Assembly: GCF_020524085.2 (NCBI RefSeq)
Contig: NZ_CP129016.1
Location: 1,606,001 to 1,670,000 of the forward strand
DNA: 64,000 nucleotides
Source of the DNA: Halobacillus litoralis
GTDB lineage: Bacteria > Bacillota > Bacilli > Bacillales > Halobacillaceae
Direction of reading: 5' to 3'
The notes beneath the pieces were generated by a model that had not been told where the DNA came from, ran no database searches, and saw nothing but the letters and a program-made list of their open reading frames with translations. The position numbers and the translations under genes are program-made. Shown one piece after another: positions 46,394-59,886 of the stretch. The stretch's first letter is position 1. Every line of letters starts with the position of its first letter.

Positions 46394-48347
46394 GTGATAA
46401 CCATAAGTGCTATAGCAGGGATTTATCAACTGGATAGTTATCATGATGAACAAACACACTTTACTAATATGATGAAGAGTTTTGAAAAGTACCCGGCTGA
46501 TGACATCGGTGTCTGGAAGAATACTAATGTTTTATTGGGTACTCACGCGCAGTGGATCACACCTGAATCAATAAATGAACCTTTACCTTTTTATGACTCT
46601 GAAAAGCAACTTACCATAACTGCTGATGCGATTATTGATAACCGGAAAGAACTTTTTGATCAATTACAAGTAGCAAAGAAAAATAGAAAAGGTATTCCAG
46701 ATAGTCAGTTGATTCTGATGGCTTATAGTAAATGGGGAGAAGAATCCCCGAAGTATTTAGTCGGTGAATTTGCTTATATGGTATGGGATGAGAGAAATAA
46801 TAAGTTATTTGGGGCTCGAGATTTTTCAGGAAGCCGCACTCTTTATTACTATAAGAACCATTGTATATTTTCCTTCTCTACAACTATACAGTCTCTTCTA
46901 ACCTTACCTTATGTAGAAAGAAGATTAGATGAGAAATGGCTGGCTGAATACTTAGCGATACCAGGAATGAATGAGGCTGTGGATATGTCAATCACCCCAT
47001 TTCATGAAATCTGTCAACTTCCTCCATCTCATAAGGTTTCAGTCTCAAAAAATAAAGTGAAAACAACTAGATATTGTACGATAACACCAGGCAGAACCAT
47101 TAATTATAAATCTGATCAAGATTATATAGAAGCATTCCAAAGTGTATTTGAGAGGGCTGTGAACGATCGTTTAAGAACCCATAAAAATATTGGAGCTCAC
47201 TTAAGTGGAGGATTAGATTCAGGGGCCGTGGCAAGTTTTGCCTCTCACTCTTTGAAAAAAAAAGTCTAGTAAGTTGTACACCTTCAGTCATGTACCTCCT
47301 AAGGACTTTGAAGATTGGACACCTATAAACAGAGTGGCAGATGAGAGGCCTTACATTCAATCGACTGTAAACCATCTTGGAAATGTTTCTGATTACTACT
47401 TAGATTTTGGTAGTGTCTCTCCGCTTGATGAAATTGATGAATGGTTAGACATAATGGAAATGCCTTACAAATTTTTCGGAACCTCCAATTGGATTAAAGG
47501 GATATATGAAGAAGCTCACTCAAGAGATATAGGAATCTTATTAAACGGTGGAAGAGGCAATTTAAGCGTTTCATGGGGGACAACCATTAATTATTACGCC
47601 TCATTATTAAGAAAAATGAAGTTATTAAAATTACTTTCAGAGTTGGATGCTTACAGTAAAATTACACATGGAAATAGAATGAGATTGTTACCATTATTAA
47701 GTCGAATAGCTTTTCCGGCTATAAATAAAGTTTTCTATTCAGAACAACCATATAACTTCCCTCAATTAATAAGTCCTGATTTAGCCAGAAAAACAAGTGT
47801 CTATCAAACTTTAAATAAACATGGTATTAAAACAACAAAAAGCAAATACGACTTGACAGACCTGAAAGTGAGAAACCGACATTTTAAGGAAATATTCCCT
47901 TGGAATGCTACAGGTACTTTGGGTACTAAACTTTCTCTTCGGCATTCGCTTTGGAAAAGAGATCCTACAAATGACTTACGCGTAATCGAATTTTGCTTAT
48001 CGTTGCCGGAAGATCAATATGTGAGAAATGGTATGGATAGGTCCTTAATTAGAAATGGTACAAAACATTATTTACCAGATAAGGTAAGGTTGAATAATCG
48101 TGTTAGAGGAGCACAAGGGGTAGAGTTTATTCATAGAATCCAACCTCATTGGGATTCTTTTCTCGAAGAGATTACAAAAATCTCAAGAGACTCTCTATCA
48201 CCCTCTTTTTTTAATATTCCACAACTGGAAGAATCAATTCTATCCATTAAAAATCAAGGACCAAAACCTGAATTAGCTTTAGATCCTGATTTCTGGATTC
48301 TAATGAGGAGTATCATATCTTATAGATTTATCAAGAATTTCAATTGA
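46394..48347 (+). pseudogene. Lasso peptide cyclase (asparagine synthetase homologue, C protein), frameshifted
   Basis: GTG 46394 after GGGGCGGGG gives SAIAGIYQLDS, an AsnB-type glutamine amidotransferase domain whose nucleophilic Cys is missing, as in lasso C proteins. The ATP-pyrophosphatase motif HLSGGLDSGAVAS follows, then the frame ends at 47269 within LKKK. The expected SSKLYTFSHVPPKDFEDW continues in the next frame. Removing one A from the A9 run at 47255-47263 restores a 650-residue enzyme. This enzyme adenylates the acceptor Asp and closes the macrolactam ring. If truly broken, no lasso peptide can form, but a homopolymer sequencing error is more likely. Confidence 0.88.
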
Positions 48348-48362
48348 AAGGGGGTGAATCAT

Positions 48363-48506
48363 ATGAAGAAGGAATGGAGTACACCAGAGTTGTTAACTTT
48401 GGATGTTCATCAAACAATGGCTAGTGGTGCATTTGGTGAGTTTGATGAAGGTTACAACGATGACTTACCGCACGATGGTCAGACTGGCTATCATCACGTC
48501 TCCTAA
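48363..48506 (+). CDS. Lasso peptide precursor (A), paeninodin family
   Basis: 47 residues from ATG 48363 after AAAGGGGGTGA. Leader MKKEWSTPELLTLDVHQTM (19 residues) has the W-x2-P-x-L recognition motif for the B1 protein and Thr at -2. The core begins ASGAFGEFD, so Ala1 and Asp9 can form a 9-membered macrolactam as in paeninodin, leaving a 19-residue tail that ends GYHHVS. The terminal Ser is the known site of phosphorylation by PadeK-type kinases, and such a kinase is encoded next. A strong hairpin follows the stop. Confidence 0.9.
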   Translation: MKKEWSTPELLTLDVHQTMASGAFGEFDEGYNDDLPHDGQTGYHHVS

Positions 48507-48520
48507 TAAAGTACTTAGAA

Positions 48521-48557
48521 AGAGTCTAAAATTCCTTGTTTAGGAATTTTAGACTCT
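48521..48557 (+). other. Perfect hairpin between precursor and kinase genes
   Basis: AGAGTCTAAAATTCCT (48521-48536) and AGGAATTTTAGACTCT (48542-48557), 16-base exact arms, loop TGTTT, no T-run. It probably protects the 3' end of precursor mRNA or attenuates the downstream genes so that precursor exceeds enzymes. Confidence 0.8.
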
Positions 48558-48597
48558 AATATATTCTAAGATTCATTCACTGGTGAAGAGGTGGAGT

Positions 48598-49530
48598 ATG
48601 AGAAAAACACTCAAAAAAGGTTACCATGTTTTTGGCTTACATGTAAGTAGTGAGATGTCATTACCTGAAGTTCCTCAAGCAAACTTGTCTAATACTTATG
48701 CTGATGTAACTATTAGACAAATAAACTTAGAAGATCAATGGGAAAAGGTATCTGGCAATGGCAAGTCCTTTTATATAGAAGAGAATTTATGCATGTTTAA
48801 AGTTACAGAAGTGTGTGTTTGCCTCATTAGAAATGGCAATGAAATATTATTCACTCCTCTTCCGGGTTCTGTTAGAAGCCATGTTCGGTTGTATATTTTA
48901 GGAAGTTGCATGGGCATCATCCTTATGCAAAGGAAAATCCTCCCCTTACACGGCAGCGCCATTTCCATCGACGGAAATGCCTATGCCATCGTTGGAGACT
49001 CAGGAGCAGGAAAATCAACCTTAGCCTCAGCATTCCTAAAGCGCGGATATAAATTATTAAGCGATGATGTCATCCCCGTCTCATTTTCCGATGAACGAGT
49101 TCCGATGGTTACACCAGCCTATCCGCAACAAAAGTTATGGCAGGAAAGTATGGATCATTTTGGTTTTGAATCCGGAGAATATGAGCCGATTATCGATCGT
49201 GAAACAAAATTCAAAGTTCCAGTCGGCGATCAATTCGAAGAACGTCAGTTACCTTTAGCGGGCATCATTGAATTAACAAAAACAGATGACGAACAGGTTC
49301 ATATCGAACCAATACAGGATTTATATCGTTTCAGCACTTTATTCAAGCATACGTATCGGAATTTTATTATTCGACGTGCCGGGCTGATGGATTGGCATTT
49401 TAATACTTCAACAAAGATCTTGCCCCATGTGGATATGTTTCACATGAGGAGACCAGTTTCACAATTTACAGCTAATGAATTAGTAGACAAGGTTCTACAG
49501 GCCATTGGTAAGGAGGAATCTGTAGTATGA
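48598..49530 (+). CDS. HPr kinase-like lasso peptide kinase (K protein)
   Basis: 310 residues from ATG 48598 after GAAGAGGTGG. The P-loop GDSGAGKSTLASAF (about residues 139-152) follows the GSAISIDG strand, and LLSDDVIPV supplies the Mg-binding Asp pair, as in HprK and the PadeK/ThcoK kinases that phosphorylate the C-terminal Ser of lasso precursors. Both lasso precursors in this window end in Ser. It overlaps the B1 gene by 4 bases. Confidence 0.88.
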   Translation: MRKTLKKGYHVFGLHVSSEMSLPEVPQANLSNTYADVTIRQINLEDQWEKVSGNGKSFYIEENLCMFKVTEVCVCLIRNGNEILFTPLPGSVRSHVRLYILGSCMGIILMQRKILPLHGSAISIDGNAYAIVGDSGAGKSTLASAFLKRGYKLLSDDVIPVSFSDERVPMVTPAYPQQKLWQESMDHFGFESGEYEPIIDRETKFKVPVGDQFEERQLPLAGIIELTKTDDEQVHIEPIQDLYRFSTLFKHTYRNFIIRRAGLMDWHFNTSTKILPHVDMFHMRRPVSQFTANELVDKVLQAIGKEESVV

Positions 49531-49814
49531 GTCAATCGGTAGCTTTAGTACAAATGGTTCAGCAAAAAGAAGGAAATATTGTGAGTGATATGGATGGGGA
49601 GCGTGTGATGCTCAGTATTGAAAATGGGAAGTATTACAATTTAGGAGAGCTTGGCGGGGAGATATGGGATAAGATCGAAAACCCGAAACCTGTAAGTGAA
49701 TTGATTGATGAGTTGCTTGAGGTCTATGAAGTGGAACGGGGTGTTTGTGAAGAGCAAGTTCAAGCGTTTCTTAAGCACCTTCGTGATGAGAATTTAATAG
49801 AAGTGAAGAAATAG
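49527..49814 (+). CDS. PqqD-like leader-binding protein (B1, RRE)
   Basis: 95 residues. GERVMLSIENGKYYNLGELG and IWDKIENPKPVSELIDELLE are the winged-helix PqqD/RRE pattern. In split Firmicute lasso systems it holds the precursor leader and presents it to the B2 protease. Start is coupled to the kinase stop (ATGA). Confidence 0.9.
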   Translation: MSQSVALVQMVQQKEGNIVSDMDGERVMLSIENGKYYNLGELGGEIWDKIENPKPVSELIDELLEVYEVERGVCEEQVQAFLKHLRDENLIEVKK

Positions 49815-49850
49815 ACTTCAAAAGAACAGTCTTGGAAAGGAATTAAGCTC

Positions 49851-50342
49851 ATGAGGAAGTTGATGACTTTTTTGACCTTGAGTAGGGAATCGAAAAGATT
49901 GTTGTTGGAGTCTTTTTTTTATTTGGGTTGGGCGAGAATCCAAAAGCGCCGTCCTTTTTCTAATTTAGCTCCTTCATTAGGGAAACATATGCAGGAAACA
50001 GGGATGGACGATGAGTGTACAGATCGTAGAACACTAGCGAAAGTTTCTCAAGCTATTCAAATCATGAGTAAATACACTTTTTGGGAAAGTCGTTGCCTTG
50101 TCCAAGCTCTTGCTGCAAAGAAGATGCTTGAAAAACGAGGTGTCGGAAATACTCTTTACTTGGGGACGGCAAAAGAAGACAACGGAGAGATGGTTGCTCA
50201 TGCCTGGTTGAGAAGCGGTCCTTATATTGTCACAGGAGCGAAGGGAATGGAGCGGTTTACTATTGTCAGTACCTTTGCGGGTCCTGTAGGAGGTGAATCA
50301 CATGAGCAAAGCTACAAACCTTCAATTAGCGAACGTACCTAA
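49851..50342 (+). CDS. Transglutaminase-like leader protease (B2)
   Basis: 163 residues. The catalytic Cys in WESRCLVQALAAKKML, the His in MVAHAWLRSG and the downstream VTGAKG segment match lasso B2 cysteine proteases, which cut the leader after the T-x dipeptide. ATG 49851 follows GGAAAGGAATTAAGCTC. It overlaps the next gene by about 40 bases. Confidence 0.88.
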   Translation: MRKLMTFLTLSRESKRLLLESFFYLGWARIQKRRPFSNLAPSLGKHMQETGMDDECTDRRTLAKVSQAIQIMSKYTFWESRCLVQALAAKKMLEKRGVGNTLYLGTAKEDNGEMVAHAWLRSGPYIVTGAKGMERFTIVSTFAGPVGGESHEQSYKPSISERT

Positions 50343-51480
50343 AGAGGTTCACTTGATTCTTCAGTTGCTGAAGTCAGATAAACAACAAGATATTGATGCA
50401 CTTTCAAGAAGTTCGTTTGAGGACATCGACTGGAATTTGTTTATCAAACAATCGTTACATCACCGTGTTTACCCGTTACTCTACTCCAAAGTAAAAATGG
50501 TTGAAAGCGGACGTATACCAGAGTTTGTCGAAGAAAAACTTTGCTTTGAATATAAGCGTAATACCTTTCAAATGTTGCAATTGAGTGGAGAGATGGAACG
50601 GATGAGTCGTTTGTTTTCCTCTAATGAAATTCGGTTGCTTTTTTTGAAAGGCCCTATGCTATCACATGAACTATACGGGGATGTTTCATTGAGAACTTCG
50701 GGTGATTTGGATGTGATGATTTCGATTGAAGATCTTCAGAAAGCTGAACATCTACTAGCAAGTCACGGATATCAAAAAGATGATTACATCGAAACCGTGT
50801 TAGAAGATTGGAAGTGGAGGCATCATCATGTGACCTACTATCATCCCCGGAAGAAAGTGAAAATCGAGCTGCATTGGCGTTTGAATCCCGGTCCGTGCAA
50901 AGAGCCAGGATTTGAACACTTATGGAAGCGAAAAGAGGTTAGCTCGATTTCAAAAACCCCTATCTACATTCTGGGGAAAGAGGAATTATTTTTGTTCTTA
51001 GCTGCACATGGAGCGAGGCACGGGTGGTCCAGGTTACGGTGGTTGGTAGATATAGACCGTTTGGTGGATCAGTCCATTGATTGGAAGAACCTTAAGCGAT
51101 TATTGATTCACAATCACTTCCACCTCGCTGGAGCTCAAGCTCTTTACTTATCTTCCGTCCTTTTGGAAACTCCTGTTCCATTGGAAATGCCAGTTAATAA
51201 AAGGTCACGTGTTTTGGCACAACAAGCGATATTCTATTTAGAGTCTATGATCAACCTCCACTCAGAGCCTTTGCCGCAGGAGGTTGCAGACTATCATAAG
51301 CGTCATTTATTTTCTCTAATGTCATGGAATCAAAAGTTCTTTTTTATCCTGAGCTTTTTGTATCCTTATCCCGAGGATGCCGAGCTTTTGCCATTGCCTA
51401 AAAGACTTCACTTTTTATATTTTCCTCTACGCCCTTTTCTGTGGGGGTGGAGAAAGACTAGAAAGCACGCAATCACATAG
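50302..51480 (+). CDS. Nucleotidyltransferase-family protein of the lasso cluster (N)
   Basis: 392 residues from ATG 50302, after GGAGGTG. The minimal nucleotidyltransferase core is KGPMLSHELYGDVSLRTSGD leading into LDVMIS (GxG...DxD type), followed by KIELHWRL and the ELFLFLAAHGARHGWSRLRW block conserved in the family. Equivalent to PadeN of the paeninodin cluster, whose exact role is unknown; tailoring of the phosphorylated tail has been suggested for such proteins by association only. Confidence 0.85.
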   Translation: MSKATNLQLANVPKEVHLILQLLKSDKQQDIDALSRSSFEDIDWNLFIKQSLHHRVYPLLYSKVKMVESGRIPEFVEEKLCFEYKRNTFQMLQLSGEMERMSRLFSSNEIRLLFLKGPMLSHELYGDVSLRTSGDLDVMISIEDLQKAEHLLASHGYQKDDYIETVLEDWKWRHHHVTYYHPRKKVKIELHWRLNPGPCKEPGFEHLWKRKEVSSISKTPIYILGKEELFLFLAAHGARHGWSRLRWLVDIDRLVDQSIDWKNLKRLLIHNHFHLAGAQALYLSSVLLETPVPLEMPVNKRSRVLAQQAIFYLESMINLHSEPLPQEVADYHKRHLFSLMSWNQKFFFILSFLYPYPEDAELLPLPKRLHFLYFPLRPFLWGWRKTRKHAIT

Positions 51481-51494
51481 GGGGACGCGAAATT

Positions 51495-53285
51495 ATGAAG
51501 CATGTCCTTTATTTTTTGAATGAGATTCATAGTTATTCAGGAAAAGTCTTGTATATCAATTTGTTTGCTATGACCGTAATCGGGCTCCTGGAAGGCATCG
51601 GAATCCTATTGCTTGTCCCTTTGATTAGCTTAAGTGGAATCGTGGATTTAGGCACCCAGGGTTTACCTTTTATGGAAGCTTTTCAGTTTGTGGAGAAAAT
51701 TCCGCCTGAAATCGGGCTTCCAACAATTCTTCTATTTTATGTAGGAATTGTTATTACTCAAAATTTACTTCAACGGAGGATTACTGTAAGAAATGCAGTG
51801 ATTCATCAGGGATTTATGAGGCATTTACGAATGAAAACGTATGATTCACTCCTTCATGCGAAGTGGCAGTTTTATTTGAACAAGAGAAAGTCAGATTTAG
51901 TAAATATTATGACTGGGGAAATTGCCCGTGCAGCCAGCGGTACACAGTCTTTCTTACAGTTTGCAGCATCATTAGTGTTCACTTTGATCCAGATTTGTCT
52001 CGCTTTTGCTCTATCACCAAACATTACGACCTTCGTCATTACATGCGGATTTATTCTCATCCTTTTTAACCGGAAGTTCTTAAAGAGGTCGCTTGAGTTA
52101 GGCAATCGCAGTTATAGTCTGAATCGACGGTATCTTTCTGGGGTAACGGATCAGATGAATGGAATGAAAGACTTAAAAAGCAATACACTGGAAGAATCCA
52201 GAGGCCATTGGCATGCCACGATTACAAAAGGGATGCAGGATGAGCAGGTTGAATACACAAAATTGAAAGCTACATCAAGGCTCTATTACAAAATTGCTTC
52301 GTCAATTCTGATTGCTGCTTTTATATTCATTGCCATTCAGTTATTCAATGCTCAATCAGGTCAATTGATGCTGGTCATTGTCATCTTTTCTCGGTTGTGG
52401 CCGCGAGTGACAGGCATTCAAGCGTCTATGGAACAAATTGCAAAAGTAATACCTTCTTTAGAGGCTGTGAACAGAGTAAGGCATGAAAGTGAACAGGATC
52501 GTGAGTTTATGGAGGAAAGTCAACGGAATGAGCCCTTGAAGGTTAATGAAGCCATCGAATGTCGGAATCTTTCTTTTCAATATAAAAAGGAAAGTCGTTA
52601 TGCTCTGAAGAATATTAATATTACTATTCCTTCTCAGCAGATGACGGCTGTTGTCGGTCGCTCCGGGGCAGGGAAGAGTACATTGATTGATATGTTAATG
52701 GGATTAAATTATCCAGACCAGGGAGAAGTTCTTGTTGATGGTGATTCCATATCCGACGAGAAGATTAGGTCTCTGCGTAAAGCGATCAGTTATGTTCCTC
52801 AAGATCCTTTTCTTTTCAATGAGAGCATTCGTGACAATTTAATGTTAGTGGATCCTGAAGCGAATGAAGAAGCAATTTGGGAAGCCTTGGAATTTTCATC
52901 GGCAGCAGAATTTGTTCGAGAGCTCCCTCAAGGACTTGATACGCTTATTGGTGACCGGGGAATTAAGTTATCTGGAGGAGAAAGGCAGCGTTTAGTGTTA
53001 GCCCGCGCCATCTTAAGGAAACCTCCCATTCTCATCTTGGATGAAGCTACGAGTGCGTTGGATTCAGAAAATGAGAAAAAAATACAAGAAGCGATTGAGC
53101 AGTTGAAAGGTAGAATGACCATTATAGTCATTGCGCACCGGTTGTCGACGATTCGAAATGCGGATCAGGTTATTGTTTTGGAAGAAGGAGAAGTGGTTCA
53201 AAAAGGGGATTTTCATCAACTGGCTAATGATAAGAAAAATGTCTTCAGCCATTTGTTGAGCCACCAGATGAAAGTTGTTCGTTAA
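51495..53285 (+). CDS. ABC exporter of the lasso peptide (D)
   Basis: 596 residues: six membrane segments in the first about 320 residues, then an ATPase domain with Walker A VVGRSGAGKSTLID, Q-loop YVPQDPFLFN, signature LSGGERQRLVLARA and Walker B ILILDEATSALDSE. No C39 peptidase domain is present, so it exports already processed peptide and should give self-immunity. Ends the canonical C-A-K-B1-B2-N-D gene order. Confidence 0.92.
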   Translation: MKHVLYFLNEIHSYSGKVLYINLFAMTVIGLLEGIGILLLVPLISLSGIVDLGTQGLPFMEAFQFVEKIPPEIGLPTILLFYVGIVITQNLLQRRITVRNAVIHQGFMRHLRMKTYDSLLHAKWQFYLNKRKSDLVNIMTGEIARAASGTQSFLQFAASLVFTLIQICLAFALSPNITTFVITCGFILILFNRKFLKRSLELGNRSYSLNRRYLSGVTDQMNGMKDLKSNTLEESRGHWHATITKGMQDEQVEYTKLKATSRLYYKIASSILIAAFIFIAIQLFNAQSGQLMLVIVIFSRLWPRVTGIQASMEQIAKVIPSLEAVNRVRHESEQDREFMEESQRNEPLKVNEAIECRNLSFQYKKESRYALKNINITIPSQQMTAVVGRSGAGKSTLIDMLMGLNYPDQGEVLVDGDSISDEKIRSLRKAISYVPQDPFLFNESIRDNLMLVDPEANEEAIWEALEFSSAAEFVRELPQGLDTLIGDRGIKLSGGERQRLVLARAILRKPPILILDEATSALDSENEKKIQEAIEQLKGRMTIIVIAHRLSTIRNADQVIVLEEGEVVQKGDFHQLANDKKNVFSHLLSHQMKVVR

Positions 53286-53335: not shown

Positions 53336-53509
53336 ATGAAAAAAGTCTATGAAGCACCGGAAGTTCTTGATCACCGTCCGATTAAATTTGAAACATCTCA
53401 AAGTTGGAACAAAGGACATGGTCCTGTATCCGGAGATGACGGCAACAGTAATGGCCAAAACTACCCCCATGATCCATATCAACCTAAAAAGCCACACACG
53501 CATAAGTGA
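53336..53509 (+). CDS. RiPP precursor of the second cluster, non-lasso
   Basis: 57 residues from ATG 53336 after AAGGAGG. The leader MKKVYEAPEVLDHRPIKFET keeps the Y-x2-P-x-V/L recognition pattern of lasso leaders. The rest (SQSWNKGHGPVSGDDGNSNG, then a Pro- and His-rich basic tail ending PHTHK) is rich in Gly, Asn, Asp and His. If cleavage followed the lasso rule after Thr-Ser, positions 7-9 would be His-Gly-Pro, with no Asp or Glu acceptor, so a lasso ring is not expected. It does not end in Ser. The product type is unknown. Confidence 0.75.
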   Translation: MKKVYEAPEVLDHRPIKFETSQSWNKGHGPVSGDDGNSNGQNYPHDPYQPKKPHTHK

Positions 53510-53518
53510 GAGATATGG

Positions 53519-54292
53519 ATGGAGAGTATGCTTACTAAGGTTGGCGAACATACATTTGAATTCTATGGAGATATGGAGACGGTAGAAAAGCTATATGGGG
53601 CGTTCATCCATAAAAAATCACAAACAAGAGACATGGGTGTTTTTTTAGAGTCTGGTTTTGGTAAATCCTTTGATAGTTATGAAGTCACCCATTTCATGGG
53701 AAATGGGTGGAATTATCTTAAGCGGACAGATTTTCTCATAGAGTTCAGTCTGAAGTTAAAAACAGCTAAAATTCAATACTTCGATGAATTAGCTTTGAAG
53801 CATGCTTTTATGACATTATACAGCACATTTATAACAGAAATAGAATGGGGATTATTGGTTCATTCTTCGTGTATGACGGAGGGGGAGGTGGCTCACTTAT
53901 TTGCAGGGGAGTCGGGGGCAGGGAAATCAACGGTTGCTCATTTATCATCTCCCAGAGTACTGCTTTCAGATGAAGCTGCGATTCTAAAGGTAGAGGATAC
54001 AGGAATCAAAGTCTTTGATTCACCGTTCAGAAGTGATCAGGCATCGTTTGGTGTGGACAAATCTTTCCCATTAGCAAGTATTGATTTTTTGAATCAGGCT
54101 CAATTGAATCAAAGGGAACCACTCAAAGATAGAGAGTCATTAATAGAAATGATGGATAAGGTTTTTTCATGGTATCCTGGTCCATTATATACTTTGAAGT
54201 TGATCAAACTTATCAAGTTAACTGTAAAGCAAGTCCCAGTGTACAATCTTTACTTTAAAAAAGATCCTACGTTTTGGGAGTTGATCTCATGA
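53519..54292 (+). CDS. HPr kinase-like protein of the second cluster (K2)
   Basis: 257 residues (alternative start ATG 53528). The P-loop is FAGESGAGKSTVAHL and a LLSDEAAIL strand provides the Mg-binding acidic residues, as in the K protein of the first cluster. It is shorter, lacks part of the N-terminal domain and is quite divergent. Probable role: phosphorylating a Ser/Thr of the precursor at 53336, although that peptide has no terminal Ser. It overlaps the PqqD-like gene by 4 bases. Confidence 0.8.
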   Translation: MESMLTKVGEHTFEFYGDMETVEKLYGAFIHKKSQTRDMGVFLESGFGKSFDSYEVTHFMGNGWNYLKRTDFLIEFSLKLKTAKIQYFDELALKHAFMTLYSTFITEIEWGLLVHSSCMTEGEVAHLFAGESGAGKSTVAHLSSPRVLLSDEAAILKVEDTGIKVFDSPFRSDQASFGVDKSFPLASIDFLNQAQLNQREPLKDRESLIEMMDKVFSWYPGPLYTLKLIKLIKLTVKQVPVYNLYFKKDPTFWELIS

Positions 54293-54558
54293 GACCTTTA
54301 TTAAAACGAAAAAAACAGCATGAAATAGTGGAAATGGACAAAGAGTGGATGGTTTTAGATTTAGAAGCATATACCATTACGACTCTAAATGAAGTAGGAA
54401 GCTTTTGTTGGTCTATACTCCATGAGGATAAATCATTAGAAGATATTGTGAATATTGTTGCCGATGAGTATCAGATGGAACCAAGAGATGTAGAACATGA
54501 TGTAACCCTCTTTATATACAAAATGGAGGATGTTGGATTGATTGAACATGTCTGTTGA
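54289..54558 (+). CDS. PqqD-like leader-binding protein of the second cluster
   Basis: 89 residues from ATG 54289, coupled to the kinase stop. KEWMVLDLEAYTITTLNEVG, FCWSILHEDKSLEDIVNIVA and a final IYKMEDVGLIEHV show the winged-helix RRE fold. It presumably binds the precursor leader at Y-x2-P. It overlaps the peptidase gene by 11 bases. Confidence 0.85.
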   Translation: MRPLLKRKKQHEIVEMDKEWMVLDLEAYTITTLNEVGSFCWSILHEDKSLEDIVNIVADEYQMEPRDVEHDVTLFIYKMEDVGLIEHVC

Positions 54559-54994
54559 TTCTCCAAGCCGATTAGTTATTGCGAAGGTGCTTATATCAAA
54601 AGGAAGGATCGATCTGCCTGCTACGGGTACCAGCATGTATCCGTTAATCCGTGAAGGGGATATATGCCGTTTTGTCTCCTTGGATTATGAAAATCTTAAG
54701 AAAGGAGATATTCTGCTGTATCAATCGGATCACGGGCAGTTGATTGCTCATCGCTTGATTTATAAGTCAGGAGATTCTTATCTTTGTAAAGGAGATTCTA
54801 ACCTTGGCAATGATGATTGGGTGTATTCAGATCAGCTTATAGGAAAAATGTTGTACGTCAGTAAAAATCATAAGATCTTTTACCTCAACGGTCTATTAGG
54901 AAAAACATGGACTTGGTCTATCCTTACGTTTCCTTCGGTTTCTAAACTATGGAGAAGGTTCTTAGCATTCCAAGAGAGTCAAATCAGATCATGA
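54548..54994 (+). CDS. S24/S26 signal-peptidase-like protein in place of lasso B2
   Basis: 148 residues. The catalytic Ser stands in LPATGTSMYPLIREGDICRF (S-M motif of S26 peptidases); downstream LIAHRLIYKSGD and LCKGDSNLGNDDW follow the archaeal/SipW pattern with His in place of the general-base Lys. There is no clear transmembrane anchor, unlike secretory signal peptidases. It sits exactly where a B2 leader protease would be, between RRE and exporter, so I infer that it removes the leader of the 53336 precursor. Start ATG 54548; TTG 54542 is possible. Confidence 0.75.
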   Translation: MSVDSPSRLVIAKVLISKGRIDLPATGTSMYPLIREGDICRFVSLDYENLKKGDILLYQSDHGQLIAHRLIYKSGDSYLCKGDSNLGNDDWVYSDQLIGKMLYVSKNHKIFYLNGLLGKTWTWSILTFPSVSKLWRRFLAFQESQIRS

Positions 54995-54998
54995 AGCG

Positions 54999-56801
54999 GT
55001 GAGTATATTGAATTTTACGGATTGTAAAAACTACTTTTCATTATATGAAATCAAGCGGACGTTTTCCTTATTAGCTCCTTATATTAAAAGGCATAAAATT
55101 CCTTATCTGGGGTTATTTATTTTGATGTTTGTAGACATTGCGCTTGTCATTGCATTCGCCTGGTTCTTCGGGAATATCATAGACGCTGCGGTTCAGAGTG
55201 ATTTTGATCGCCTTCAAAAAATGATTGTAGCGGGGATTGGAATATCAGTAGTAAGTATGAGTGTGAACTTTATCGATACTTTATTGGAAACGAAAGCCTT
55301 GAATGCTGTGAAAAGAGATTTGAATGTGGATCTTTACAGCCATGTCTTGAAAATAAATGGAAAGGACTTTTCTCATTATCATTCGGGTGAGTTAATGTCT
55401 CATTTTACGAATGACCTTCACCAGATTGACGGTGTTATAGGGAGGGGGTTAATCAATTTAGTTCGACTCCCTTTAATTGCCTGTGCTGCTCTTATATATC
55501 TTATTCATATTAACTGGACCCTATCTCTGCTCGTTCTTTTAGTAGCGCCTTTGGCTGTCATAGGAGGTGCTTTATTCGGCTTCTTATTAAAAAATAACAG
55601 CCGCAAAATCCATGAATTAATTGGTGGAATCACAAAAAACTTGAACGAAACGTTTCAAGGAATCACGGTTATTCGCTCGTTTACTTTGGAACAACTCTTT
55701 TTGAAAAATTATAAGAAAAAGAATGATGATTTGTATGAGCTTGAAATGAAAGATGCAAAATTACGAGGGTGGTTTTATACGGGAGGAGAAGCTGTAGGGA
55801 CCATTACATTCTTGATCAGCGTACTTGTAGGGGCTTTTTTTGTGACGGATCAAGTCTTGACGGTGGGTGCATTGCTCACATTCATCAATTTGGTGAACCA
55901 TTTAGTTTATCCGTTGACAGGGCTTGCCGGCCAGTGGGCTGGTTATCAACGCTCTGCTTCAGCATTGGAACGAATCCTTCACCTGCTTGATCGGGCACAA
56001 GAAACTTCAGGAACGGCCATACCTTTCATAAACCATTCAACCCAATATCCTATTTCTTTTCATAACGTTAACTTCAGTTATGACGGGAAGTCGAACGTAA
56101 TTAGAGATATGGATCTTGATTTACCTACAGGAAAAATGACGGCGATTGTCGGACCAAGCGGAGCGGGTAAGTCCACGATGTTTCAGCTTCTACAAGGATT
56201 TTATCAACCGACTTCAGGGTCCATAATTTTCAACGGACAACCGATTGATCAAATGAATTTATCAGAATGGAGACAAATGATCGCCTATGTTCCCCAGGAA
56301 TCTTTCCTATTTAGTGGTTCTTTAAAGAAGAATCTAATATATGCCCGTCCCGATGTAACACAAACGGAAATGATCCAGGCGGCTAAAAATGCGAATATCC
56401 ATGATTTTATAGAGTCATTACCCGATGGTTATGATACAGAAATAGGAGAGCGGGGAATTAAACTCTCTGGTGGACAAAAACAGAGAGTAGCCATTGCCCG
56501 AGCTTTCTTGAAGGATTCCCCTATTCTTCTGTTAGATGAAGCTACTTCGTCCTTGGACCATGAAACAGAGTTTATGGTTAAAGAAGCTCTTGATCGTTTA
56601 ATGGTCGGGAGAACAACTTTAGTCATTGCCCACCGATTGTCTACGATAAGACATGCTGATCATATGGTTGTTTTGGACAAAGGAGAAATCGTACAGCAGG
56701 GAAATCATGAGCACTTGATTGCAAAAGACGGGTTGTATAAGGATTTGTATCAGAAACAGTATTTCATTAAAGAGGGACATGCATGGAAGGCTCATGCATA
56801 A
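54999..56801 (+). CDS. ABC exporter of the second RiPP cluster
   Basis: 600 residues: six-helix membrane domain (first about 330 residues), then Walker A IVGPSGAGKSTMFQL, Q-loop YVPQESFLFSG, signature LSGGQKQRVAIARA and Walker B ILLLDEATSSLDHE. No peptidase domain. A paralogue of the exporter at 51495 with clear differences, so it probably carries its own peptide. GTG start at 54999, 4 bases after the peptidase gene. Confidence 0.9.
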   Translation: MSILNFTDCKNYFSLYEIKRTFSLLAPYIKRHKIPYLGLFILMFVDIALVIAFAWFFGNIIDAAVQSDFDRLQKMIVAGIGISVVSMSVNFIDTLLETKALNAVKRDLNVDLYSHVLKINGKDFSHYHSGELMSHFTNDLHQIDGVIGRGLINLVRLPLIACAALIYLIHINWTLSLLVLLVAPLAVIGGALFGFLLKNNSRKIHELIGGITKNLNETFQGITVIRSFTLEQLFLKNYKKKNDDLYELEMKDAKLRGWFYTGGEAVGTITFLISVLVGAFFVTDQVLTVGALLTFINLVNHLVYPLTGLAGQWAGYQRSASALERILHLLDRAQETSGTAIPFINHSTQYPISFHNVNFSYDGKSNVIRDMDLDLPTGKMTAIVGPSGAGKSTMFQLLQGFYQPTSGSIIFNGQPIDQMNLSEWRQMIAYVPQESFLFSGSLKKNLIYARPDVTQTEMIQAAKNANIHDFIESLPDGYDTEIGERGIKLSGGQKQRVAIARAFLKDSPILLLDEATSSLDHETEFMVKEALDRLMVGRTTLVIAHRLSTIRHADHMVVLDKGEIVQQGNHEHLIAKDGLYKDLYQKQYFIKEGHAWKAHA

Positions 56802-56815
56802 GGAGGAACAGGGGT

Positions 56816-57885
56816 ATGATTCACACATTTATCAATCATCTTTATTCAAAGGATTCTCTTAGTGTGTTGAATTATCAAACCTTGATTGAAGAGGTAGAGA
56901 AGGACGGAGTAGCTCCGCAAATTTATGGGATATTGGTTCACCAGGGGAGGCTGGAAGAGACCCCACTTTTCTTTCAAGTGCGTTTACTGGAGAAGGTGAA
57001 TCATAACAGGTATTCATCTGTTTTTATTAAATGTGAAACAGACCGAATCCTTAACCACTGTGAAAAACTTCAATATGAGCTTATTCCATTGAAGGGTGTT
57101 TATTTCGCGGAAGAATATTTTGGCAATTTCACACACCGAACCACCAGTGATATTGACATTTTGGTAAGAAAAGAAAGGGTGGATGATCTCATTCAGTTAG
57201 TGAAAGAGTTAGGATTTGTAGAGGAAGAATCCTATATAGCCGGTCATTTCCATCGCTCTTTCAGTAAACCTTTGCCCCATTCAGATATACCTTTGACGGT
57301 AGAAATCCACTGGGAACTGATGAGACCTGATACTTCTTCTGTCGATACAGAGCTTTTATGGTCTCACGCTGTACCATTTAAAAACTACGCCAGTATAAAA
57401 AAAGCTCTCTCCTACACACACTTTTTATTTTATGTGCCTTCATGCCTGGAGACATAATCTTGACTCAATAAAACATGACCTGGATGTTATTCAGACTATG
57501 AACCATATGCCGGTGAATGTAGCAGAGGTATTACATCTAGCCAGACGTCATCAGACCTATAAACGCATAACCCGGACGTTAGCCATTTTATATGAACGAT
57601 ATCCTATACTTCGTGAAAAATATCCTTCTCCCCAGGTTAAAGGTCTTTGGTTCAATAAAATTGAAAAATTCAGTTGGAGTAAACCAGTGATTTTTTTTTG
57701 ATTATCAAGTGTTGAGTTATGATACGTGTAAACATCGAGTGAAAGAAACAGGAAGGTTGTTTCTCTCACCTGAAAGCAATCAATATGTTCAATGGAAACT
57801 AAAAGTCATCAAGAATAGATTGTTCGATCTATATGTATGGCATAAGCAGCAGGTACTCAATATGATTAAGATCATTAAGTTATAG
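56816..57885 (+). pseudogene. Nucleotidyltransferase-family protein of the second cluster, two frameshifts
   Basis: ATG 56816 follows AAGGAGG. KGVYFAEEYFGNFTHRTTSD leading into IDILVR is the same GxG...DxD core as in the protein at 50302. The frame ends at 57457 just where YTHFLF should join LHAWRHNLDSIKHDLDV in another frame; a surplus T in the runs 57422-57431 explains it. A second surplus T in T9 at 57691-57699 ends that frame at 57701, after which DYQVLSYDTCKHRVKETGRL continues to a stop at 57885. Corrected, the protein has 355 residues. Two surplus T residues in T-runs point to sequencing error. Confidence 0.85.
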
Positions 57886-58881: not shown

Positions 58882-58944
58882 TAATCTAAGTTTCAAAATT
58901 ATATAATAGGTATAGATTGCTATAAAGATGGAGTGAATTGGAAG

Positions 58945-59886
58945 ATGAGTCGTTCTAAAAAACACGAGAAGAAAAAAGGTCGATGGTGGAAGGTATCCCT
59001 TGTTTTATTAGTGTTGTTGTTATTACCAGTAGGTGTTTATGCTTACTCTGTATATAGCGGGGCTAAAAATACGGTGGATTCGAAAATGCATCAACAAGTT
59101 GCATCCATTGATCATGAATTGACAGAGAAAAAGCGAAAAGAAAAAGAACCGCTCAACATTTTGCTGATGGGCGTTGATGAAAGAGCTGGAGATTCCGGGC
59201 GTTCTGACGCTTTAATGGTGTTGTCTGTTGATCCAAACGAGAATCGCAGCCAAATCATCAGTATCCCTCGTGATACACGCACGGAGATGGTCGGCGATTC
59301 TTCTCAAGCGGGAAATCTAGATAAAATCAATCATGCTTACGCTTTCGGTGGAGCAGATATGGCCATTCAAACGGTTGAGAATTTTCTTGATATCGATCTC
59401 GACTACTATGTTCAAGTGAACATGGAAGGTTTGGAAGAAATGGTGGATGCTGTTGGTGGAATTACCATCCAGAACGATATTGAATGGTATGGGAAGGATA
59501 ACTTCCATTATAAAAAAGGTGAACTGACCATGGATGGGGAAGAAGCTTTAGGCTATGTTCGTATGCGTTATGACGATCCTAAGGGTGACCTTGGGCGTAA
59601 CGAACGCCAACGTAAAGTCATCCAAGGAATTGTAGATAAAGGGATGAATGTCGGATCCATTAATAAAATTGGTAATGTCATGGACGTTCTTGGTAAGAAT
59701 GTTGCTACCAATATGGATTTTAGTACGATGCAGGATTTGATGAAGAACTATAGTGGGGCGAGAGAAAATCTTTCCACTTATCAGATGACGGGGACAGGCA
59801 CTAAGATTAATGGAATTTATTATTTGGAAGTTCCGAATCAGGAAGTAGAAGATGTACGAGAAATGATACTTGATTTTAATTCGTAA
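58945..59886 (+). CDS. LytR-CpsA-Psr family protein
   Basis: 313 residues from ATG 58945 (GTG 58933 possible). Short basic cytoplasmic start, one membrane helix (about 14-35), and an extracellular LCP domain with LLMGVDERAGDSGRSDALMV, IISIPRDTRTEMVG and YVRMRYDDPKGDLGRNERQR, the pyrophosphate- and lipid-binding residues. Such enzymes attach teichoic acids or capsule polymers to peptidoglycan, so it may anchor the EPS made by the cluster upstream or serve general wall polymers. Confidence 0.9.
   Translation: MSRSKKHEKKKGRWWKVSLVLLVLLLLPVGVYAYSVYSGAKNTVDSKMHQQVASIDHELTEKKRKEKEPLNILLMGVDERAGDSGRSDALMVLSVDPNENRSQIISIPRDTRTEMVGDSSQAGNLDKINHAYAFGGADMAIQTVENFLDIDLDYYVQVNMEGLEEMVDAVGGITIQNDIEWYGKDNFHYKKGELTMDGEEALGYVRMRYDDPKGDLGRNERQRKVIQGIVDKGMNVGSINKIGNVMDVLGKNVATNMDFSTMQDLMKNYSGARENLSTYQMTGTGTKINGIYYLEVPNQEVEDVREMILDFNS

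Follow-up and report, generated by a model that had tools for sequence, protein, structure and literature searches.

Layout of the locus

The window analysed here is a stretch of 64,000 nucleotides from Halobacillus litoralis (contig NZ_CP129016.1). This report deals with a set of six genes on its plus strand, 53336-57885, which encode, in this order, a small precursor peptide, an HprK-like kinase, a PqqD-type recognition element (RRE) of ribosomally synthesized and post-translationally modified peptides (RiPPs), an S26 signal peptidase, an ATP-binding cassette (ABC) exporter and a nucleoside triphosphate (NTP) transferase (Table 1). The original prediction, made from the letters alone, had listed these genes, and all six are found in the order it gave. 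It had also remarked on a missing macrolactam cyclase and B2 protease; neither occurs within 53336-57885, and both are present only in the lasso peptide cluster upstream. Its picture of six genes has nevertheless to be amended: genes and order stand, but the NTP transferase is split into three open reading frames (ORFs), and a lasso set lies directly upstream.

Table 1. Features of the window that are discussed in the text
Feature	Position	Strand	Characteristics
Predicted precursor of a linear polyphosphorylated peptide (LPP; LppA-like)	53336-53509	+	57 amino acids; leader MKKVYEAPEVLDHRPIKFET, core SQSWNKGHGPVSGDDGNSNGQNYPHDPYQPKKPHTHK
HprK-like kinase (LppK-like)	53519-54292	+	P-loop GESGAGKS at residue 130
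PqqD-type RRE (LppB-like)	54289-54558	+	PF05402, 1.7e-13; N33/D70/F74 kept
S26 archaeal-type (SipW-like) signal peptidase, LppS-like leader peptidase	54548-54994	+	TIGR02228; S29/H68/D89
MsbA-like ABC exporter (LppD-like)	54999-56801	+	PF00664 and PF00005
NTP transferase (LppN-like), three ORFs in the assembly	56783-57885	+	PF14907, 3.4e-22 on the first piece
Paeninodin-type lasso cluster	46394-53285	+	NF033524, NF033536 and NF033537 above cut-off
Exopolysaccharide locus upstream of the lasso cluster	23258-46192	+	Wzz, AAA_31 ATPase, Polysacc_synt_2, glycosyltransferases, Bac_transf, Polysacc_synt_3
Calcineurin-like phosphoesterase with N-terminal hydrophobic helix	57904-58881	+	PF00149, 3.2e-13
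LytR-CpsA-Psr (LCP) family protein, downstream border of the island	58933-59886	+	PF03816, 1.1e-48

Assignment to the linear polyphosphorylated peptides

We regard 53336-57885 with hardly any reservation as a biosynthetic cluster for an LPP. This RiPP family with the genes lppA-K-B-S-D-N was described by Popov et al. (Nat Commun, 20 May 2026; PMC13381572). The assignment is based on the agreement of leader motif, FET site, Ser3 of the core, key residues of RRE and peptidase, and gene order. The system is not new, the family having been published. The original prediction had called the system undescribed and had named placement in a characterised RiPP class as the result that would speak against this. 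That is precisely where the cluster belongs, since, apart from the frame-broken NTP transferase, it has the sequence features by which PMC13381572 defines LPPs. A literature search on the family name, or on RiPP combined with signal peptidase, HprK and lasso, found this paper only within the collection searched.

The closest standard of comparison is the lpp cluster of Paenibacillus alginolyticus DSM 5050, the strain of the published experiments. It shares with the window the order A-K-B-S-D-N, the leader motif, the FET site, Ser3, the same key residues of RRE and peptidase, and the paeninodin-type lasso and polysaccharide neighbours; LPP clusters often adjoin paeninodin clusters and capsule loci (PMC13381572). 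The two differ in that the cores are only 43% identical, that the lasso cluster lies downstream of lpp in P. alginolyticus but upstream in the window, and that the NTP transferase is frame-broken in the window. Paeninodin-type lasso clusters, too, have an HprK-like kinase, a PqqD-type RRE, an NTP transferase and an ABC exporter. Unlike them, the LPP cluster lacks the macrolactam cyclase and the B2 protease, its leader has YxxP for WxxP, and its RRE has Asn for Gly.

According to PMC13381572, LppK polyphosphorylates Ser3, and the SipW-like LppS together with LppB cleaves after T-1. The experiments, made with P. alginolyticus genes only, comprised Ser3 phosphorylation, RRE-dependent cleavage by LppS and binding of the leader to the RRE. 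A linear phosphorylated peptide freed of its leader by an S26 serine peptidase, as foreseen in the original prediction, was shown for the orthologous lpp cluster and would, by analogy, be made here as well. Nucleotidylation, which the prediction had offered as an alternative, is conjectural; in PMC13381572 the detected products were the same after deletion of lppN.

The precursor peptide

The published leader motif, YxxPxVLxHQxIxFETxxS (PMC13381572), is matched by YEAPEVLDHRPIKFETSQS of the window precursor with a single departure, Q to R. The junction reads YEAPEVLDHRPIKFET before and SQS behind the predicted cut. Cleavage after FET would yield a core that starts with SQSWNKGHG, has no Asp or Glu at positions 7-9 and ends in a tail rich in His, Pro and Lys; leader, core and tail are as they had been predicted. 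The leader has YxxP, not the WxxP of paeninodin-type lasso leaders, and the lasso precursor model NF033524 does not match the peptide but recognises the lasso precursor upstream (4.1e-8).

All 17 of 17 candidate homologues were retrieved at E<=2.4e-17. F18, E19, T20 and S23, the latter being Ser3 of the core, are invariant in 18/18 precursors from the sequence search and again in a further alignment of 25; these 25, however, had been chosen by the pattern FE[TS]..[ST], so that their invariance is partly built in and only T and S are free results. A calcium-binding, EF-hand-like loop in the core was considered and rejected: position 35 is D in only 12/18 and position 37 N in 16/18 sequences. 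The core encoded by P. alginolyticus DSM 5050 (L007 8644-8862; L numbers designate loci of other genomes) starts with AQSWNK, whereas PMC13381572 prints a LysC fragment AQSNWK, which is probably a misprint.

The precursor has no Pfam or NCBIfam family at E<=0.1 and no PDB chain at E<=10, and databases alone would therefore suggest an undescribed RiPP class. This reading is practically out of the question, since gene set, gene order, leader motif and cleavage enzyme are those described in PMC13381572 and the tested sequence features agree with it.

Kinase, recognition element, peptidase and exporter

The kinase agrees with that of P. alginolyticus DSM 5050 in 105 of 262 aligned positions; its matches to TIGR04249 and TIGR04352 fall far under the cut-off. 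In a PDB search the top match of the RRE is the LppB structure 9X8Z (2.9e-15), followed by 5V1U (2.8e-7) and the lasso RRE 9X90 (0.0041), while the RRE of the upstream lasso cluster finds 9X90 (PbaB1) at the top with 9.5e-30. N33, D70 and F74 are present in the LPP RRE of the window, and the lasso RRE has Gly aligned with N33. N33 and D70 are the residues that decide on the leader in LppB; PMC13381572 explains the mutual exclusion of LppB and PbaB1, the RREs discriminating between leaders.

Overall in the RRE alignment, N33 is replaced by Ser in L016 and L017. Eight LPP leaders lack the Tyr of YxxP (L013, L014, L022, L025, L027, L028, L030, L033). In these loci N33 is kept throughout (8/8), and position 70 is D in four and E in four. 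Glu at this position occurs in 4/8 loci with Tyr-less leaders versus 2/29 with Tyr (Fisher p 0.013, kinship being ignored); dropping one of the near-identical L027 and L028 raises p to 0.04. From these alignments the association of the leader Tyr with position 70 would be a trend at most. Tyr-less leaders may fall outside the recognition rule given in PMC13381572.

The S26 peptidase scores 59.6 bits with TIGR02228 (cut-off 51.85), and Pfam S24 matches only under its cut-off. Ser29, His68, Asp83 and Asp89 do not vary in an alignment of 42 peptidases, i.e., the window and 41 of 47 matches; D93 of LppS aligns with Asp89, the second invariant Asp. The best NCBIfam matches of the exporter are MsbA-related models, which stay under their equivalog cut-offs.

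Distribution

A species-level genome collection, scanned once with the peptidase alignment, yielded 68 loci encoding a related peptidase, and in 43 of them a kinase and an RRE lie within 4 kb of it; L024, where the peptidase stands apart from the other genes, was left out of the 43. The homologue scores of the precursor and this co-occurrence imply that the gene set is more than chance. Within the 43 loci, which include P. alginolyticus DSM 5050 (L007) with the gene order of the window, the ABC gene follows the peptidase directly in all (43/43), 40 have the NTP transferase, 18 lasso genes (counted in at most 10 kb per side) and 8 the phosphoesterase. The precursor pattern found a precursor in 29/43. 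A looser listing provided candidates for 12 of the remaining 14 (L010, L016, L017, L030, L031, L039, L041-L046), yet none in L048 and L051.

Precursor profile matches were obtained in 5/44 genomes of the window's family, 9/150 of its order and 7/398 of its class, two of the latter seven with an in-frame stop. PMC13381572 likewise describes a patchy distribution with many gains and losses. In the order sample the lasso B2 protein accompanies LPP in 8/9 genomes versus 32/150 overall (Fisher p 1.5e-5, shared ancestry being ignored), and both lie on one contig, 3.4 to 671 kb apart.

One might take the 57-residue peptide and its helpers for a second substrate set of the lasso pathway, cyclised by the upstream cyclase. 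The lasso cluster indeed ends a mere 50 bases before the LPP cluster, and both leaders contain an aromatic-x-x-P motif. The peptide, however, has its own LPP-type RRE, its own peptidase, a YxxP leader and no Asp or Glu at core positions 7-9; the published RREs discriminate (PMC13381572), and 25/43 LPP loci have no lasso set in the flanks that were counted. A second lasso substrate has next to no probability.

Frame breaks and other points of doubt

The three ORFs of the NTP transferase end at 57457, 57701 and 57885 and all match one ORF of 357 amino acids in H. litoralis SL-4 (L003), which is 90.2% identical to the window over 15.4 kb. PF14907 and the R..SDID motif can be recognised, yet the assembly contains two breaks of the frame. 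The alignment to L003 reveals one-base differences that change the frame, two of them within the NTP transferase and another within the cyclase of the upstream lasso cluster. The latter gene (46394-48347) is split near 47263-47274; its counterpart in L003 is an unbroken ORF of 650 amino acids. L003 in turn carries a split exporter of its own, which implies that frame breaks arise elsewhere in this island too.

If the breaks were real mutations, the cluster would be decaying and yield no mature product. For this speak the frame-changing differences in both genes, the match of the NTP transferase to a single ORF of 301-397 amino acids in 43 other loci among L003-L056, and the split exporter of L003. 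Yet the other five genes of the cluster are intact in the window, single-base differences are of a kind that long-read assemblies can produce, and deletion of lppN did not change the detected products (PMC13381572). Decay appears rather unlikely.

Some observations weigh against the LPP assignment. Judged from the frame breaks, the last step of the pathway may be missing; the leader carries R where the LPP consensus has Q; and in six Paenibacillus loci (L041-L046) the small ORFs adjoining the same kinase, RRE and peptidase genes have FGT for FET and a core without Ser at position 3. The FET/Ser3 motif is thus not universal beside the LPP gene set.

Neighbouring genes and the phosphoesterase

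The upstream lasso set consists of the frame-broken cyclase, a precursor (48363-48506), a kinase, an RRE, B2, an NTP transferase and an ABC exporter. In the exopolysaccharide locus before it 15 ORFs were scanned; the first (23258) remained without a match and one encodes a helix-turn-helix protein.

The phosphoesterase behind the cluster was considered as an LPP gene and then withdrawn: in the 150 order genomes it tracks lasso B2, which is present in 14/15 of its carriers, and not LPP (2/9, Fisher p 0.22). In the window's family it occurs in 9/9 carriers of LPP or lasso B2 and in 0/35 others, save one weak paralogue (2e-26). The 398 class genomes yielded 7 strong matches (242 bits or more), of which 3 belong to lasso or LPP clusters, 1 adjoins the remnant of a lasso exporter and 3 lie elsewhere; only 3/57 class lasso carriers have the enzyme. 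L105 and L006/L108 (the same contig) combine LPP and phosphoesterase with only a C-terminal lasso exporter remnant of 140 amino acids in front. Such remnants would fit a loss of the lasso cluster in the two genomes.

The fold is calcineurin-like, as in the pyrophosphatases LpxH and LpxG. In close relatives the usual GNH histidine of the third block is replaced; the window protein lacks this His as does LpxH, which has Arg instead (PMC3087551), and its N-terminal helix is shared by LpxG (PMC4807358). The lasso epimerase MslH is also calcineurin-like in fold (PMC10406935), but was not among the matches listed in the fold comparison. An MslH-like epimerase is unlikely because of the membrane helix. 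Literature searches turned up no mention of such a phosphoesterase as partner of lasso clusters in the text searched; of the papers listed only that on MslH bears on lasso enzymes. The phosphoesterase, found behind lasso clusters in Bacillaceae, may catalyse an unassigned step in phosphorylated lasso peptides.

Pathway, core constraint and role

As inferred from conserved residues and gene order, the steps established for P. alginolyticus would also occur in the window strain. The RRE (54289) would bind the YxxP leader and present the precursor, the HprK-like kinase would place one or more phosphates on Ser3, and the SipW-like peptidase, aided by the RRE, would cut after FET (T-1) and free a core of 37 residues, which the ABC exporter would carry out. 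The likely task of the NTP transferase is to attach another group to the phosphate.

What the peptide is good for may be guessed from its core. Six genomes have a core of the same type: L006 (Halobacillus halophilus), L073 and L075 (of the window's genus), L019 (Rossellomorea aquimaris), L023 (Pseudalkalibacillus caeni) and L024 (Neobacillus niacini); the subgroup thus spans at least four genera. L003 was excluded as too close (core 92%, enzymes 77-89%). Compared with the window, the cores are 68-86% identical and the leaders 58-80%, versus 44-46% for LppK, 33-44% for LppB, 39-50% for LppS and, in four of the six, 52-63% for LppD. At the same time, of the 12-13 fourfold sites that the core offers, 8-11 have changed. 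Since fourfold sites and enzymes diverged while the core residues stayed alike, selection, and not a recent transfer, appears to account for the likeness. This hints at a fixed partner of the core in this subgroup rather than at an arms race. Against this reading, the subgroup was sorted by core type, and eight loci with other cores are only 27-46% identical to the window in the core, in line with the variable C termini of LPPs noted in PMC13381572.

A secreted bacteriocin would be in line with a RiPP-type cluster with exporter and with the patchy distribution, including many gains and losses (PMC13381572; 9/150 order genomes). The subgroup core, however, is conserved across genera while its fourfold sites changed. 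The lasso cores, found by pattern within the subgroup in the window, L019 and L023 only, are mutually unlike, but this contrast is weak, since lasso cores elsewhere are alike (L030 with L056, L004 with L008). On balance, a bacteriocin is quite unlikely. We prefer to see in the LPP a conserved peptide of the cell surface or matrix, because the core of the subgroup appears more constrained than its enzymes. One may go further and speculate that the Halobacillus-type core is a fixed surface peptide which is attached to the exopolysaccharide of the flanking locus, the link being the phosphate chain of Ser3 together with the NTP transferase; it would then be a glycan-linked peptide of matrix or wall and not a diffusible antibiotic. 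This is a long shot.

The nearly fixed core has a practical side. One synthetic peptide would represent several genera, and the conserved positions show which residues matter.

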